Virus record (IMG/VR): IMGVR_UViG_3300023500_000032
Location: 1 to 22,590 of that record
Source of the DNA: a virus
Direction: 5' to 3' (one strand)
Length of the DNA stretch: 22,590 bases
The notes under the pieces were generated by a model, which was not told the origin of the DNA, searched no databases, and was given only the letters and a program-made list of their open reading frames with translations. Shown here in pieces: positions 1 to 10,515 of this stretch; the first letter of the stretch is position 1, and each line of letters begins with the position of its first letter. Position numbers and translations under genes: made by a program.

Positions 1-686
1 TGCGATTGAACAATGTCCGTCTGCACATTTTCCAGCCACTTGAATCTGAACCCAGCCCAGCTTTGCTCAGCCATAATTTGAAAACATGCATCAACACCAT
101 AACCAGCATTAACAGCCTTATGTAATTCTCTACCTACTCCGTCAATAGCAGTTTGTGTATTTGCCGCACGTTTTGTTTTTCTAACTTGTAGCCAATCATC
201 AAGAAGCTGTTTTTTAGGTAGCGCAGGGAAAGAATCATAATTTATGCTTCCGCTTCTATTCTTTCCTTCTTTCCTTCTTTCATTCTTTCCTTCTTCTTCT
301 GTGGTCATCTGTTGGTCGCTTGTTGGTCGCTTGTTGGTCGCTTGCTGGTCATCTGTTGGACTTTTTGTTGGTCGCTTATCTTGATAATCAGCCCATTTTG
401 CTATGGTGCATATAGAGAATCTGTTGGTCGTTTTGATGGTCAATTCATTCGTTGATGTAAGCTTGCTTAGCGATGTTCGTATTTGTCTTTCTGATAAGTT
501 TAAATCTAAAGCAAGCTGTTTTCTGCCAATAATTAAAGAGCCTTTTGGTAAATCATAACCTCTATATCTTGATGGCTTAAAGTTGGCATTAAGTAATAGA
601 TGTAGAAACAAGCGCACTGTGTTGCCGTCTGTGTACCATTCCCAAAGCTTTATTTTTCGCGAAAGTTTTATAAATGAATTATCCAT
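1..686 (-). CDS. Replication initiator-like protein with N-terminal winged helix, partial (C-terminus beyond window)
   Basis: The reading frame is open from ATG at 686 to the left edge (228 residues seen). I translated it from the minus strand. Residues 1-110 look like a helix-turn-helix/winged-helix domain of the phage replisome-organizer type: they begin MDNSFIKLSRKIKLWEWY and include GRKQLALDLNLSERQIRTSL, a good recognition-helix pattern. A low-complexity polar linker follows (Q, T, K, E rich, about residues 104-147), then a second folded part with conserved Trp residues (DDWLQVRK, QSWAGFRFKW). This N-terminal DNA-binding domain, flexible linker and C-terminal domain is the plan of lambda O-type initiators, which bind origin iterons and recruit the helicase loader. 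The start overlaps the stop of the preceding gene (TAATG), implying coupled translation. The linker is encoded by an 11-bp repeat array (see 301-375). Function is inferred from domain pattern and context; a helicase loader, if present, lies left of the window. Confidence 0.75.
   Translation of the reverse strand, partial: MDNSFIKLSRKIKLWEWYTDGNTVRLFLHLLLNANFKPSRYRGYDLPKGSLIIGRKQLALDLNLSERQIRTSLSKLTSTNELTIKTTNRFSICTIAKWADYQDKRPTKSPTDDQQATNKRPTSDQQMTTEEEGKNERRKEGKNRSGSINYDSFPALPKKQLLDDWLQVRKTKRAANTQTAIDGVGRELHKAVNAGYGVDACFQIMAEQSWAGFRFKWLENVQTDIVQS
247..301. other. Strand-asymmetric pyrimidine/purine tract next to the iterons
   Basis: About 55 bp that are nearly all C and T on the plus strand (repeats of CTTTCCTTCTTTC), hence nearly all purine on the coding minus strand, where they encode a Glu/Lys/Arg-rich stretch (EEEGKNERRKEGKN). 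It directly adjoins the iteron array. In lambda ori a purine/pyrimidine-asymmetric, easily melted segment lies next to the iterons, so this is a candidate DNA-unwinding element. It could also simply encode a charged linker. Confidence 0.45.
301..375. repeat. Array of 11-bp iteron-like repeats inside the initiator gene (candidate replication origin)
   Basis: Seven units based on YTGGTCRY start at 301, 312, 323, 334, 345, 356 and 368, so spacing is 11 bp except for one 12-bp step. Three consecutive units and the last one contain exactly TTGGTCGC; the others are degenerate (GTGGTCAT, CTGGTCAT, TTGGACTT). Two more related units lie at 424 (TTGGTCGT) and 436 (ATGGTCAA). Because 11 is not a multiple of 3, the encoded peptide does not repeat at the unit length, which suggests the DNA rather than the protein is being conserved. 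Lambda and related phages place origin iterons in the middle of the initiator gene, as here. Confidence 0.6.
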
Positions 687-3332: not shown

Positions 3333-3389
3333 TCTGCAATAAGGTGTAAGCTTGGCGATATGAAAAAGGGGGATTGATATGAAGAATGA
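3147..3389 (+). repeat. Direct repeat, copy 1 (243 bp)
   Basis: Contains the whole CX2C gene, a 46-bp intergenic leader and the first codons (MKNE) of the next gene. Matched throughout, with scattered substitutions, by 3996-4238; the offset is a constant 849 bp. The leader in both copies contains a five-codon minigene (Met-Lys-Lys-Gly-Asp) whose codons include the ribosome site and whose stop is one base before the downstream ATG. Confidence 0.85.
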
Positions 3390-3993
3390 GAGATTTAAGC
3401 ATGATTTTTTAGATGGAAATGGCAAAGTAGATGCAAGGCATCACAAAAATGGTGGTGGTATTGTCGCATTATCTGCGAGTGTTCATGTTAAAGCATTTGT
3501 CGGAAAAAACGCGGCTGTTTCACAATTTTCAGTTGTCGGTGAATTCGGTGTAATCAATGGCGGTGTAATCAGGGGCGGTTTAATCTGGGGTGGTGAAATC
3601 AATGGCGGTGTAATCAATGGAGGTGAAATCTGGGGCGGTGTAATCAATGGCGGTGTAATCAGGGGCGGTTTAATCTGGGGTGGTGAAATCAATGGCGGTG
3701 TAATCAATGGAGGTGAAATCTGGGGCGGTGTAATCTGGGATGGTGAAATCAGGGGTGGTGTAATCTGGAATGGTGCGGTTGTTAAAGTTTCCCCGATCGT
3801 GTTAATCGGCGGTAAATACACATTAACAGCCATTGATTGCGATATAAAGATTGGGTGCAAGATTGCTAAATGTGAGTGGTGGCTAAGAGCGACTAGAAAA
3901 CAAATAGATGAAATTGAAAATGGCGCATCAAAACATTTTAAAGCTATAAAATTGGCAGCAAAGCTCATTAAAGAGCTTCAAAAACAGGGGTAA
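3379..3993 (+). CDS. Beta-solenoid pentapeptide-like repeat protein of phages (204 aa)
   Basis: ATG follows AAAAAGGGGG. Residues 1-57 contain loosely repeated short strands (VALSASVHVKAFVGKNAAV) like hexapeptide-type phage proteins. Residues 58-132 are 15 uninterrupted five-residue units of the form (V/E/L)-I-(N/R/W)-G-G. These suggest a beta-solenoid with a regular Ile stack and Gly turns, though they are not the classic A(D/N)LXX pentapeptide. The C-terminal 70 residues (PIVLIGGKYTLTAIDCDIKIGC, then a basic helical tail with CEWW) resemble the conserved end of a widespread phage repeat protein family of unknown function. Those relatives usually show V-x-G-N/D-A-x-V repeats. Known pentapeptide proteins can mimic DNA, but no such role is shown here. 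Confidence 0.8.
   Translation: MKNERFKHDFLDGNGKVDARHHKNGGGIVALSASVHVKAFVGKNAAVSQFSVVGEFGVINGGVIRGGLIWGGEINGGVINGGEIWGGVINGGVIRGGLIWGGEINGGVINGGEIWGGVIWDGEIRGGVIWNGAVVKVSPIVLIGGKYTLTAIDCDIKIGCKIAKCEWWLRATRKQIDEIENGASKHFKAIKLAAKLIKELQKQG
3550..3729 (+). repeat. Two identical 90-bp tandem units within the repeat protein gene
   Basis: 3550-3639 and 3640-3729 appear identical base for base; each encodes six five-residue units (VINGG, VIRGG, LIWGG, EINGG, VINGG, EIWGG). Three diverged 15-bp units follow to 3774. Perfect identity, including synonymous positions, implies a recent duplication, so the number of copies probably varies among relatives. Confidence 0.9.
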
Positions 3994-5459: not shown

Positions 5460-5608
5460 GTAGCCAAAAAGAAACGCTATGCGGGAATCACTGGCTTGAG
5501 TCTGGAAGCCCGTTCAAAGAGTTGATTGAGGAGGTGGCGCAATTTTCAGCGGGTGATAAGAGCTTTTCAGCGAGATTAGAGAAAGAATTAAGGGAGAAGA
5601 AGAAATGA
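5456..5608 (+). CDS. Small protein of unknown function (50 aa)
   Basis: ATG overlaps the preceding stop and the stop overlaps the annealing protein's start, both ATGA, with GGGGGC as ribosome site. The sequence has a Trp and Cys near the start (LCGNHWLESGSPF) and an acidic then basic helix to the end (RLEKELREKKK). Its tie to the annealing gene may mean co-regulation with recombination. Confidence 0.6.
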   Translation: MSSQKETLCGNHWLESGSPFKELIEEVAQFSAGDKSFSARLEKELREKKK

Positions 5609-6270
5609 GTAATAAATTAAAAGCGGCAGAACAAACAGAAATTACGCAAGTAACACCAATGTCAATGATTAAAGAAGGTATGCAGCAAGATAATGTTGAC
5701 GTTGGAAAAATGGAGAAGCTCTGGGAGTTACAGCAACAATATGAAGCAACGCAGGCACGTAAAGCATTCGTATCAGCTATGGCGAAGTTTCGCGAAGAAT
5801 GTCCAGCTATTGTTAAAACAAAGCAGGCGCATAATTCTAAATATGCAGGACTAGCAGAAACACTAGCGCAGATTAAAACTATCGAGTCAGAGTGTGGCTT
5901 ATCTCATTCATGGCGAACAGATAGCAAGGGCGGAACTGTTGAAGTGACTTGTGTTGTGACCCATTCGCAAGGGCATAGCGAGCAAACCACGCTTATTGCA
6001 GAACCCGACAAGTCAGGAAGCAAGAATAGCATTCAGGCTATCGGTTCAAGCGTCACATACTTACAACGTTATACATTGTTTTCGTTGCTCGGCTTGGCAT
6101 CAAGTGAGGATGATATTGATGGTAATGCAAAGCACTTTGACGGCGATGTTGTAGCTGCATTTCAGGAAGCATTAAGCAAACAAGTATTGCGTAGTATTTG
6201 GGCTTCATTAAGTCCAGCGCAACAAAAACAACATCGTGATGATTTAGATGTAAGGCTGGGTGAACTATAA
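5605..6270 (+). CDS. erf: ERF-family single-strand DNA annealing protein (221 aa)
   Basis: The core of the Erf family is visible at residues ~70-175: KQAHNSKYAGLAETLAQIK, then SLGLSH-like ECGLSHSW, and the hallmark GSSVTYLQRYTLFSLLGL followed by an acidic SSEDDIDGN. In P22 and relatives this protein coats single strands and anneals complementary ends during homologous recombination and genome circularisation. Length (221) fits the family. It is coupled to the nuclease downstream (TAATG), a pairing that forms a two-component recombination system. The C-terminal 45 residues (QEALSKQVLRSIW...) are variable in the family. Confidence 0.9.
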   Translation: MSNKLKAAEQTEITQVTPMSMIKEGMQQDNVDVGKMEKLWELQQQYEATQARKAFVSAMAKFREECPAIVKTKQAHNSKYAGLAETLAQIKTIESECGLSHSWRTDSKGGTVEVTCVVTHSQGHSEQTTLIAEPDKSGSKNSIQAIGSSVTYLQRYTLFSLLGLASSEDDIDGNAKHFDGDVVAAFQEALSKQVLRSIWASLSPAQQKQHRDDLDVRLGEL

Positions 6271-7034
6271 TGCGCGAACATACCAAGATGCCAGACGAGG
6301 AATACTTCAAGATCAAAGCTGCATCATGTTCTCTGCTCAAACGTTTGGGGTGTCCTGCAAAGGCACTCATCCCGTTTAAACCAACGCAGGCAATGCAGTT
6401 GGGGACGCTTATCCATTGTACGGTGCTTGAACCTGATGAGTTTGATTCACGTTATATTGTTGCGCCAAAGATTAACAAACGCACAAAAGTAGGCAAAGAG
6501 GAGTGGGCTGCATTTGTGGAGAATAACAAAGCTAAGACCGTTATCACCATGGAGGACTATGATATATCACACTACATTGCAAGGTGCGTTATGGCACATT
6601 CTGTAGCGTCTGACTTTCTTTCTGGTGGTGAAGCAGAGCGCGTGTTTCAATGGGAAGATGACAACACTGGCATTAAATGCAAAGGCAAAGCAGATTATGT
6701 GAAAGGTAATGTTATTGTTGACTTGAAAACAGCGGCAGATTGTAGTACTGCTGGATTTAGTCGGGCATGTGCTAATTTTGGCTATCACATGCAAGATGCT
6801 CATTATTCTAACGGCTCTGAATGTGACCAGTTTATATTCGTTGTCGTGGAAACTTCATACCCGTTTGTTGTGAGTGTGTACGAGCTTGATGATGATGCGA
6901 AAGAAATCGGCAAACGTGCTATTGAAGAAAATATAAGCCGTTATGTCGAATTGAATATGTTTGATGGATGGGAAGATGGTTATAATGATGACCAGACAAT
7001 AACAAAACTATCATTACCAGCATGGGTAAAATAA
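6270..7034 (+). CDS. RecE-like PD-(D/E)XK exonuclease (254 aa)
   Basis: Residues 42-60 (MQLGTLIHCTVLEPDEF) match the conserved start of the RecE-C/exodeoxyribonuclease VIII-like family. Probable metal-binding and catalytic residues: H49, E123, D142 (KADYV), D151 and K153 (IVDLKT), with a downstream Q175-D176-A-H-Y179 element matching the Qxxx(Y) motif. It would degrade one strand of double-stranded ends to give 3' tails for the annealing protein next door. Start at 6270 shares one base with the upstream stop. Family and role are confident; the direction of digestion is by analogy. Confidence 0.85.
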   Translation: MREHTKMPDEEYFKIKAASCSLLKRLGCPAKALIPFKPTQAMQLGTLIHCTVLEPDEFDSRYIVAPKINKRTKVGKEEWAAFVENNKAKTVITMEDYDISHYIARCVMAHSVASDFLSGGEAERVFQWEDDNTGIKCKGKADYVKGNVIVDLKTAADCSTAGFSRACANFGYHMQDAHYSNGSECDQFIFVVVETSYPFVVSVYELDDDAKEIGKRAIEENISRYVELNMFDGWEDGYNDDQTITKLSLPAWVK

Positions 7035-7046
7035 AGGAGAGTAGAA

Positions 7047-7493
7047 ATGAATATATACAGTTTTACAGGGCGTTTGGCACGAGATAGTGAGACACGTTTT
7101 ACACCAGGCGGCATGGCTATTTGCTCTTTTTCAGTGGCAGTGGACTATGGTTTTGGAGAAAATAAAGGCACGAACTGGTTGCGTTGTTCTTTATTTGGTA
7201 AACGTGCCGAAGGTCAATTGCCTAAATATTTAGTGAAGGGTACACAAGTTGCTATTAGTGGTGAGTTACGTATTCGTGAATATGATGATAAAGAAGGCAA
7301 TAAGCGTACGTCCGTCGAAGTGTCTGTGGATAAACTAGACTTGATTGGTGGTCGCACCGAGCAGCAAGGCAATAACGCTCCACAAAGACCGCAGCAATAT
7401 CAACACATGCCAGCGCAAGGCGAACAGCCGTATAGGCAAGGCACAGACCCTTTTGCAGATAATGTGGTTGTAGATGATGATATTCCTTTTTGA
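7047..7493 (+). CDS. ssb: Single-stranded DNA-binding protein (148 aa)
   Basis: AAAGGAG precedes the ATG. The N-terminal OB fold (residues 1-105) begins MNIYSFTGRLARDSETRFTP and contains FSVAVDYG and a NWLRCSLFGKRAE block. A Gln/Pro-rich linker (about 107-138) leads to the acidic tail DDDIPF, the signature tip that recruits repair and replication partners. It is placed directly after the annealing and nuclease genes as the third part of the recombination cassette. Confidence 0.95.
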   Translation: MNIYSFTGRLARDSETRFTPGGMAICSFSVAVDYGFGENKGTNWLRCSLFGKRAEGQLPKYLVKGTQVAISGELRIREYDDKEGNKRTSVEVSVDKLDLIGGRTEQQGNNAPQRPQQYQHMPAQGEQPYRQGTDPFADNVVVDDDIPF

Positions 7494-9534: not shown

Positions 9535-10515
9535 TTAATCTACCTCCTCAATGATTATAGTTGATGTGACTCGCGCAACCGCGCCAAAGTTATTATCAGC
9601 GAAAGTTCTCTGATTGTACAATATTTGCGCAGTTTTCCCCAAAATAGTTGCTGTATAAGTTAGAGGAGATACAGACGAAGGTGAGTCTATGTATTCATAA
9701 TGACACGTGTCTGGTGTAGCCCAATATCCATTTGAGATTGTAGCCATGCCTAGCAGTCGATACCCCGCGGGTGCGGGTATGCCAATATCGACACCATTTC
9801 TGCGCATGCCGAAAACTGCGGCTGGGGATGCTAGATTGTCGCTTTCTCCATGCCAGCGGACACTAACCTTAATACGCTTGGTTGCACTGCTGGGTGTTAT
9901 TGTAGCTGCTAACCCAACAATGTCGGCTCTTACGTCTGCTAATAAAGATTGGCTTGATGCTGTATTTAGATGTGTTTGCACTGGGGCTTGATTTGATGCA
10001 CCTGCAACACCTTGAATGCCCTGCGCCCCATCTGCGCCCGCAACACCCTGAATACCCTGAATACCCTGAATACCCTGCATGCCTTGAGCACCATCGGCAC
10101 CAACGGCACCTGTCGCACCATCTGCGCCCGCAGCACCGACGGGCAATACTGCCACGGCTGTCGTGTCAAGAATTGTGACATCTGTTAATTCAATCGCGCC
10201 AGTGCCAGCAGGTAAATCCCAAGTCTCTACCCAAGGAGCAACACCTGCTAAGTTGAAAACAGCTTTATATGCTATACTTAAAACGTCATGCCCTGCCCCG
10301 TTTGTCGGAGCAAGAGATATAGCAACCGCGTTTCCAGCATTATCAACAATCTTACCGTTGAGAACTTTCACAATTATTTCAATTGGGAGCACTTTCACTC
10401 TACCTGATGGCGCATCATATTCAAAAACGCCATTGGGGATTATTGTGATAGTCCCGCTTAAAGTAACACCCGATGCGGATTCGATGTTTGACGTGACTGT
10501 TTGAATAGTTTCCAT
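9535..10515 (-). CDS. Collagen-like tail fibre protein (326 aa)
   Basis: Residues 1-125 are strand-rich with many Val and Ile; residues about 127-171 are uninterrupted Gly-X-Y triplets (GAAGADGATGAVGADGAQ..., GIQGIQGIQGVAG), and residues 175-326 form a C-terminal beta domain (HWRWHGESD-like VRWHGESDNL, ending IIIEEVD). Collagen-like triple helices are common shafts in phage fibres. A trimer with N-terminal anchor, triple-helix shaft and C-terminal receptor tip is inferred. The ATG at 10515 follows GAGGT at long spacing. Fibre 2 of the window (fibre 1 is at 12049). Confidence 0.85.
   Translation of the reverse strand: METIQTVTSNIESASGVTLSGTITIIPNGVFEYDAPSGRVKVLPIEIIVKVLNGKIVDNAGNAVAISLAPTNGAGHDVLSIAYKAVFNLAGVAPWVETWDLPAGTGAIELTDVTILDTTAVAVLPVGAAGADGATGAVGADGAQGMQGIQGIQGIQGVAGADGAQGIQGVAGASNQAPVQTHLNTASSQSLLADVRADIVGLAATITPSSATKRIKVSVRWHGESDNLASPAAVFGMRRNGVDIGIPAPAGYRLLGMATISNGYWATPDTCHYEYIDSPSSVSPLTYTATILGKTAQILYNQRTFADNNFGAVARVTSTIIIEEVD
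10045..10080 (-). repeat. Tandem 9-bp repeat within the collagen-like region
   Basis: ACCCTGAAT three times and ACCCTGCAT once, in direct succession, each encoding Gly-Ile-Gln or Gly-Met-Gln. Slippage or recombination would lengthen or shorten the shaft without a frameshift. Confidence 0.85.

Follow-up and report, generated by a model that had tools for sequence, protein, structure and literature searches.

Initiator gene and its product

The first gene of the viral record considered here (22,590 bp, analysed over its whole length and called the window below) contains an array of direct 11 bp repeats, which raises the question of whether these repeats are a replication origin, read by the product of the very gene in which they lie. 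The gene (positions 3–686, - strand) has 228 codons and is truncated by the contig edge at base 3, the record being a genome fragment; PHROG profiles, an AF2 model and homologues identify it as an initiator gene. The 228-amino acid product matches the PHROG DnaD-like helicase loader profile phrog_2514 (E 3e-24, spanning only the N-terminal residues 2–143) and the PHROG replication initiation O-like profile (E 1e-14), and Pfam searches of the window protein gave neither a DnaD nor a RepA_N match. According to the model and the homologues, the gene encodes, in order, a winged-helix DNA-binding domain, a disordered linker and a helical C-terminal domain.

An AF2 model of the window protein, built with the proteins of the window and of the collected relatives' loci only (mean pLDDT 82), is best over residues 20–100 (pLDDT ~95–98) of the winged-helix domain (residues 1–102; 381–686, - strand), which has helices at 55–62 and 66–78 and wing strands at 82–86 and 91–95, while linker residues 111–144 are mostly below 50 and so predicted to be disordered. 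Residue 55 is the first residue of helix 55–62 and residue 67 the second of helix 66–78; both thus lie at helix N-termini of the helix-turn-helix, residue 67 in its recognition helix. The C-terminal helical domain (residues 150–228; 3–239, - strand), placed by the predicted helices at 159–227 and by identity with the nearest relative, locus L001, is probably the helicase-recruiting part. Over residues 175–228 it is identical to the L001 protein at 20/20, 20/20 and 14/14 residues, and the next gene after the L001 initiator encodes a DnaB-type helicase (PF03796, E 2e-72). The window itself ends inside the initiator gene; locus L003 encodes the same final 41 residues and continues with a start resembling that of the L001 helicase.

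A sequence search for a solved structure of a relative found none. In the PDB the model has no fold match with E under 1e-3: TubR comes first at a weak 7e-3, and other winged-helix proteins, among them CzrA-type repressors and the plasmid replication initiator 4pt7, are similarly weak matches. The viral fold matches of the model are replisome organizers and O proteins.

Three other regions of the window were noted. Positions 3379–3993 (+ strand) hold a 204-amino acid open reading frame with strong in-frame 15, 30 and 90 bp repeats (GGVINGGVIRGGLIWGGEI), probably encoding a beta-helical repeat protein. Positions 5605–7493 (+ strand, opposite to the initiator gene) hold a recombination cassette with an ERF-type annealing protein, a DUF3799 PDDEXK nuclease and an open reading frame that by eye resembles a single-strand DNA-binding protein. 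An open reading frame at 9535–10515 (- strand) has collagen-like GIQGIQGVAG repeats with a 9 bp tandem repeat and is likely tail-fibre related.

The repeat array and its purine tract

On the + strand, TGGTC/TGGAC cores begin at 302, 313, 324, 335, 346, 357 and 369, in steps of 11, 11, 11, 11, 11 and 12 bp, and two outlying cores begin at 425 and 437, 12 bp apart and 56 and 68 bp from 369. The seven units with a single 12 bp step and the two further units 50–70 bp away that the initial annotation described are thus where it placed them, with the refinement that the unit at 302 is a half core only (TGGTC). Every unit has the same orientation and is GACCAACA-like on the coding (-) strand, where sequence and unit profile define six linker cores within 310–373 and a partial seventh. 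In the direction of transcription these are iteron 1 (AGCGACCAACA, 366–376), iteron 2 (AAAGTCCAACA, 354–364, 12 bp past iteron 1), iteron 3 (GATGACCAGCA, 343–353) and iterons 4, 5 and 6 (each AGCGACCAACA, at 332–342, 321–331 and 310–320); the partial unit (GATGACCACAG, 299–309) was recognised by sequence and is below the unit threshold. The spacing of the outlying pair, 12 bp, is a multiple of three, and these units fall where the gene encodes the wing of the DNA-binding domain (see below).

The array is detected by TRF and by a repeat finder, and it far exceeds chance, even when the protein is kept constant: 20,000 protein-preserving synonymous recodings reach its period-11 score of 31 in 3 cases, and 20,000 codon shuffles of the linker in 0. 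In the window GACCAACA occurs 6 times against 0.68 expected, 5 of the 6 within the array region, and a tandem 20-mer pattern has three matches (0 expected), all in the array and none elsewhere in the window.

Next to the array lies a purine-rich tract (246–300, - strand), GA-rich on the coding strand and a candidate melting element by its sequence, by repeat finding and by the family trend described below. It corresponds to the 55 bp pyrimidine/purine-asymmetric stretch noted earlier, which turns out to be an 8 bp repeat. We note that the period of this tract is 8 bp in both the window and L001 and 9 bp in most relatives; as 8 is not a multiple of three, the tract too may be kept as DNA.

Conservation of spacing among relatives

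Viral contigs, bacterial genomes and named phages yielded 302 usable relatives, and we examined the period in 131 initiators less than 70% identical in the domain, which come from phages and from genomes of several phyla. A significant 11 bp period is found in the first 105 nt after the winged-helix domain in 122 of the 131, and in 26 of 28 relatives below 50% identity. Control stretches of the same size show it in only 7/130 cases when taken from the domain and in 5/118 when taken from the C-terminal part. A protein-preserving null, built for the relatives from synonymous codons at pooled codon usage, is beaten by 110 of the 131. The initial annotation had named relatives that keep the linker and lack the DNA repeats as evidence against its reading; this did not turn out to be so, since 122/131 relatives have the array, while about 7% show no significant 11 bp period and some of these have 12 bp. 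It had also argued that a period not divisible by three points to selection on the DNA, and with this both the protein-preserving null and the synonymous bases discussed below agree. The window fits the class, its direct 11 bp repeats following immediately on the winged-helix domain.

Linker arrays average 5.2 units, with 401 steps of 11 bp and 58 of 12 bp. The mean unit has A at position 1, A/G at 4, A/G at 5, C at 6, C/A at 7, and A, A/G, C and A at 8–11, and there are 95 different consensus 11-mers among the 122 arrays. Of the conservation of spacing and core that the initial annotation proposed to look for, the 11 bp spacing and the position of the array are thus kept in relatives, but the core sequence is not. 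Compared with the gene, the 40 nt past the last unit are purine-richer in 112/122 loci and AT-richer in 115/122, and 9 or 8 bp periods are common in the tract that follows the array.

In L001, which at 62% overall identity is the nearest relative, the equivalent place holds an 11 bp-spaced array of a different unit, AACAGTCAACC, followed by an 8 bp purine repeat (L001:5385-5422). The nucleotide identity of the window and L001 is 95–100% in the C-terminal half, from about residue 155, but only about 45–67% in the DNA-binding domain and array, and the 600 bp upstream are unrelated (26% identity without gaps). The switch in identity lies in or near the purine tract. With the C-terminal half shared and the domain and the array differing together, we conclude that domain and array were exchanged as one block.

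Two residues of the helix-turn-helix predict two bases of the unit

With the unit register aligned from the DNA alone, 99 domain columns and 11 unit positions give 1,089 residue-base pairs. After background correction residue 67 and base 4 covary most strongly (z 17), followed by residue 55 and base 7 (z 14). Base 4 is G in 25/26 loci with Arg67 and 14/14 with Lys67, and A in 42/49 with Gln67; base 7 is C in 61/65 with Arg55, and mostly A or T with Leu, Tyr, Ile or Val. Contacts of Arg or Lys to G and of Gln to A are classical in the major groove. The window obeys the code: Arg67 in the recognition helix (codon 486–488, - strand) predicts G at unit base 4, and Arg55 in the preceding helix (codon 522–524, - strand) predicts C at base 7, and its units have both. 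The first assignment rests on covariation, on the counts just given and on the held-out and synonymous tests, the second on covariation, on the counts in the first and the held-out loci and on the synonymous test.

Among nearest non-overlapping pairs of loci that differ at residue 67, the base differs as expected in 33 and in the opposite way in none; for residue 55 the numbers are 39 and 1. On the tree, where few branches are well supported, residue 67 changes 27 times and residue 55 19 times; the well-supported independent pairs are only 5 and 4, too few for significance, with on average 4.1 and 2.0 in the same direction and 0.0 reversed. A prediction recorded beforehand was compared with a held-out set drawn from two further collections: 52 domains, none of which reaches 70% identity to any of the 302 training loci. 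An array is present in 42 of the 52. Residue 67 predicted base 4 correctly in 37/39 of these (Arg or Lys with G 24/25, Gln with A 13/14), and residue 55 predicted A or T with Leu, Ile, Val or Tyr in 31/36 and C with Arg in 3 of four cases only. In genome-derived loci, counted by eye and titled Bacteroidota, Bacillota, Fusobacteria, Spirochaetes, Pseudomonadota and Candidatus Shapirobacteria, Arg or Lys goes with G in 12/12 and Gln with A in 8/11. The array units are thus very probably sites recognised by the protein of the same gene.

Additional units at wobble positions of the wing

When the DNA of each domain was scanned with the profile of its own array, extra units appeared at offsets -76, -64 and -52 from the domain end, 12 bp apart, in frame and within the wing codons. 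A strong domain match is present in 65/119 loci when each is scanned with its own profile; when profiles are swapped between loci the number is about 14. The outlying units of the window occupy two of these fixed family positions: ATTGACCATCA at offset -64 (434–444, - strand; codons around residues 82–85) and AACGACCAACA at offset -52 (422–432, - strand; codons around residues 85–89), both recognised with the window's own PWM and backed by synonymous covariation. In such wing units bases 4 and 7, the two specificity bases, are both third codon positions.

This permits a synonymous comparison, for which we used only the fourfold-degenerate codons of 220 domains that share less than 80% identity. 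G ends codon -75 in 49/55 domains with Arg or Lys at 67 and in 2/62 with Gln, codon -63 in 48/48 against 0/10, and codon -51 in 51/72 against 2/75; C ends codon -72 in 58/73 domains with Arg55 and in 8/106 with Leu, Ile, Tyr, Val or Phe, codon -60 in 69/76 against 7/95, and codon -48 in 56/69 against 7/81. The p values for these six wing codons are 1e-11 to 1e-31, and none of the remaining testable domain codons is comparable (smallest p about 4e-3). In matched pairs, residue 67 gives 50:0, 10:0 and 50:0 at codons -75, -63 and -51, and residue 55 gives 56:2, 67:0 and 53:3 at codons -72, -60 and -48, with no comparable excess at ten control codons. The control codons have the ancestry and codon usage of the wing codons, so that neither phylogeny nor G+C content readily accounts for the wing covariation. 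Judged from these comparisons the outlying wing units are evidently genuine, and the prediction of synonymous wing bases by residues 55 and 67 indicates that the gene itself carries sites which its initiator product reads. In addition, array base 5 tracks wing residues 83 and 87 throughout the family, A going with Thr and G more often with Ala, which suggests that the DNA sites have shaped wing amino acids.

A model for an in-gene origin and its alternatives

It is highly likely, in our judgement, that the array is the cognate site cluster of its own initiator and acts as an in-gene phage replication origin. The initial annotation's proposal of iterons and a candidate melting tract inside an initiator gene, with selection acting on the DNA, gains support from the comparison of relatives and from the way in which the core tracks residues predicted to contact DNA. 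The array, its conservation, the residue-to-base code and the DNA-level selection are supported by the sequences; from them we infer physical binding, its geometry, melting, helicase recruitment and origin function, as follows. Winged-helix protomers would occupy the non-palindromic units in head-to-tail order, with one protomer to each helical turn and all on one face of the DNA, Arg67 reading G4 and Arg55 reading the G opposite C7. The wing part would supply two units (up to three in relatives) in 12 bp, in-frame steps with the specificity bases at wobble positions, and the linker part about five to seven units in 11 bp steps, a period that runs through all three codon phases. An O-some-like complex over the wing and linker units might then melt the adjoining purine/AT-rich tract, and the C-terminal domain may recruit the phage DnaB-type helicase encoded next door.

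Two alternatives accept that the units are bound by the initiator. They could be a partition or silencing (centromere-like) site comparable to tubC, as the best PDB fold match is to TubR, which serves plasmid segregation as a DNA-binding protein and binds tandem short repeats. That match is weak, however, and is equalled by other winged-helix proteins including the replication initiator 4pt7; moreover, the matches among PHROG profiles and viral folds are to replication initiators and replisome organizers, the gene next to the L001 initiator encodes a DnaB-type helicase, and no TubZ-like partner was noticed among the listed open reading frames of the window, so we regard this explanation as improbable. 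Marginally less probable still is that the units are operators for self-repression or for blocking transcription inside the gene. Iteron-bound initiators often autoregulate, and the code points to probable binding rather than to its purpose, but the array is about 310–390 nt inside the gene, not at a promoter, and is nearly always followed by the purine/AT-rich tract.

Two others deny the DNA repeats a role of their own, and both are rejected as contradicted by the synonymous-site data; we give them almost no credence. Repeats are frequent in regions such as this linker, which is predicted to be disordered, and might be a by-product of replication slippage in low-complexity sequence. Slippage does not account for a period of 11, not a multiple of three, conserved in 122/131 divergent genes with 95 cores, for cores that track residues 55 and 67, or for units that recur at synonymous positions of the folded wing. 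Equally, a selected peptide, TNKRPTSDQQ, might bring the DNA repeats along, and similar peptides do recur among relatives. But a single gene reads the DNA unit in three phases, so that its repeats encode differing peptides, 110/131 relatives exceed the protein-preserving null, and covariation at wobble bases cannot stem from a peptide; the wing amino acids even follow the array, Ala being preferred over Thr at 83, and Ala more frequent at 87, when base 5 is G.

Returning to the in-gene origin, we consider it likely, though less so than the reading of this one array, that the window belongs to a large cross-phylum initiator family with self-addressed origins, in which the 67/4 and 55/7 code sets specificity, the sites occupy the three-phase linker and the wing wobbles and have shaped wing residues, and specificity (replicon incompatibility) can be read from sequence. 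Two residues would then predict the specificity bases of the site, candidate origins could be located in thousands of uncultured phages, and phages could be grouped by replication specificity. Such genes would also illustrate overlapping information clearly, the coding sequence of a DNA-binding domain preserving at its synonymous positions a site for that same domain, and self-addressed sites would account for the joint transfer of domain and origin when phages recombine.

Comparison with known systems

RepA_N plasmid initiators (pSK41, pUSA03) likewise have a winged-helix N-terminal domain, an origin within rep, in the part that encodes a dispensable linker, and a replisome-facing C-terminal domain (PMC5703833). 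The pUSA03 rep gene (L462:101-1060) differs in an in-gene period of 23 bp, about two turns, against one turn in the class described here; its protein has the Pfam RepA_N domain, and RepA_N does not match the domain model used here. We rejected pUSA03 as a hybrid initiator, as it is a plain RepA_N with 23 bp repeats; a hybrid initiator has been described for pPR9 (PMC5703833). The TubR/tubC system resembles the window in the weak fold likeness of the winged-helix domain and differs in that TubR serves partition, has its site outside the gene and is without a helicase-linked C-terminal domain.

Among other named phages, TP901-1 speaks against the proposed reading: its Rep (L110:2748-3566), annotated as an experimental replication protein, has a 15 bp and no 11 bp period in its linker. 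An 11 bp array is present in r1t ORF11, and the r1t replisome organizer reportedly binds repeats in its own gene. The annotated origin of Lactobacillus phage A2 was set aside, since it overlies the end of a primase gene and the adjoining open reading frame.

In λ and the Stx phages, the iterons lie mid-gene between the DNA-binding and C-terminal domains of O, with an AT-rich melting tract beside them (PMC7466680), and the known arrangement to which the initial annotation likened this gene indeed matches ori-λ. The window shares with λ the mid-gene iterons, the candidate melting tract, and a DNA-binding domain, linker and replisome-facing C-terminal domain. The sites themselves are different: those of λ are 18–19 bp inverted repeats, bound by dimers, in 20–24 bp steps, whereas those of the window are non-palindromic and in 11 or 12 bp, one-turn steps. 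No 11 bp period was found in the λ O gene, and membership of the window gene in the λ O family proper was rejected, as it has no 18–19 bp palindromic iterons at about 20–24 bp steps.

The closest precedent for the repeats is Salmonella phage L, in which gene 18 is an initiator gene with six imprecise 11 bp repeats (TGTCCAACGGA), named as the likely origin, and is adjoined by a DnaB-type helicase gene (PMC8022706). The unit of its relative ST160 gp18 is the same, TGTCCAACGGA, and in Sf6 gene 43 a rep_origin annotation spans the 11 bp repeats. The Sf6 and ST160 proteins are distant, with about a quarter of their residues shared with the window protein or with the query by which they were retrieved, and the phage L/ST160/Sf6 group has Asn at residue 67, unlike the Arg of the window. 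The initial annotation did not recognise the repeats as known ones; 11 bp repeats of this kind had in fact been reported for phage L (PMC8022706), but no code, wing units or wobble embedding is described for the phage L type, and in the openly accessible literature searched we found no description of class-wide conservation, the code or the wing sites. In-gene origins (λ, RepA_N) and 11 bp repeats in one phage were thus known already, and the class-wide code and the wobble-embedded sites are what the present comparison adds; with them the 11 bp repeats of phage L would pass from a curiosity to an instance of a general rule with a testable recognition code.
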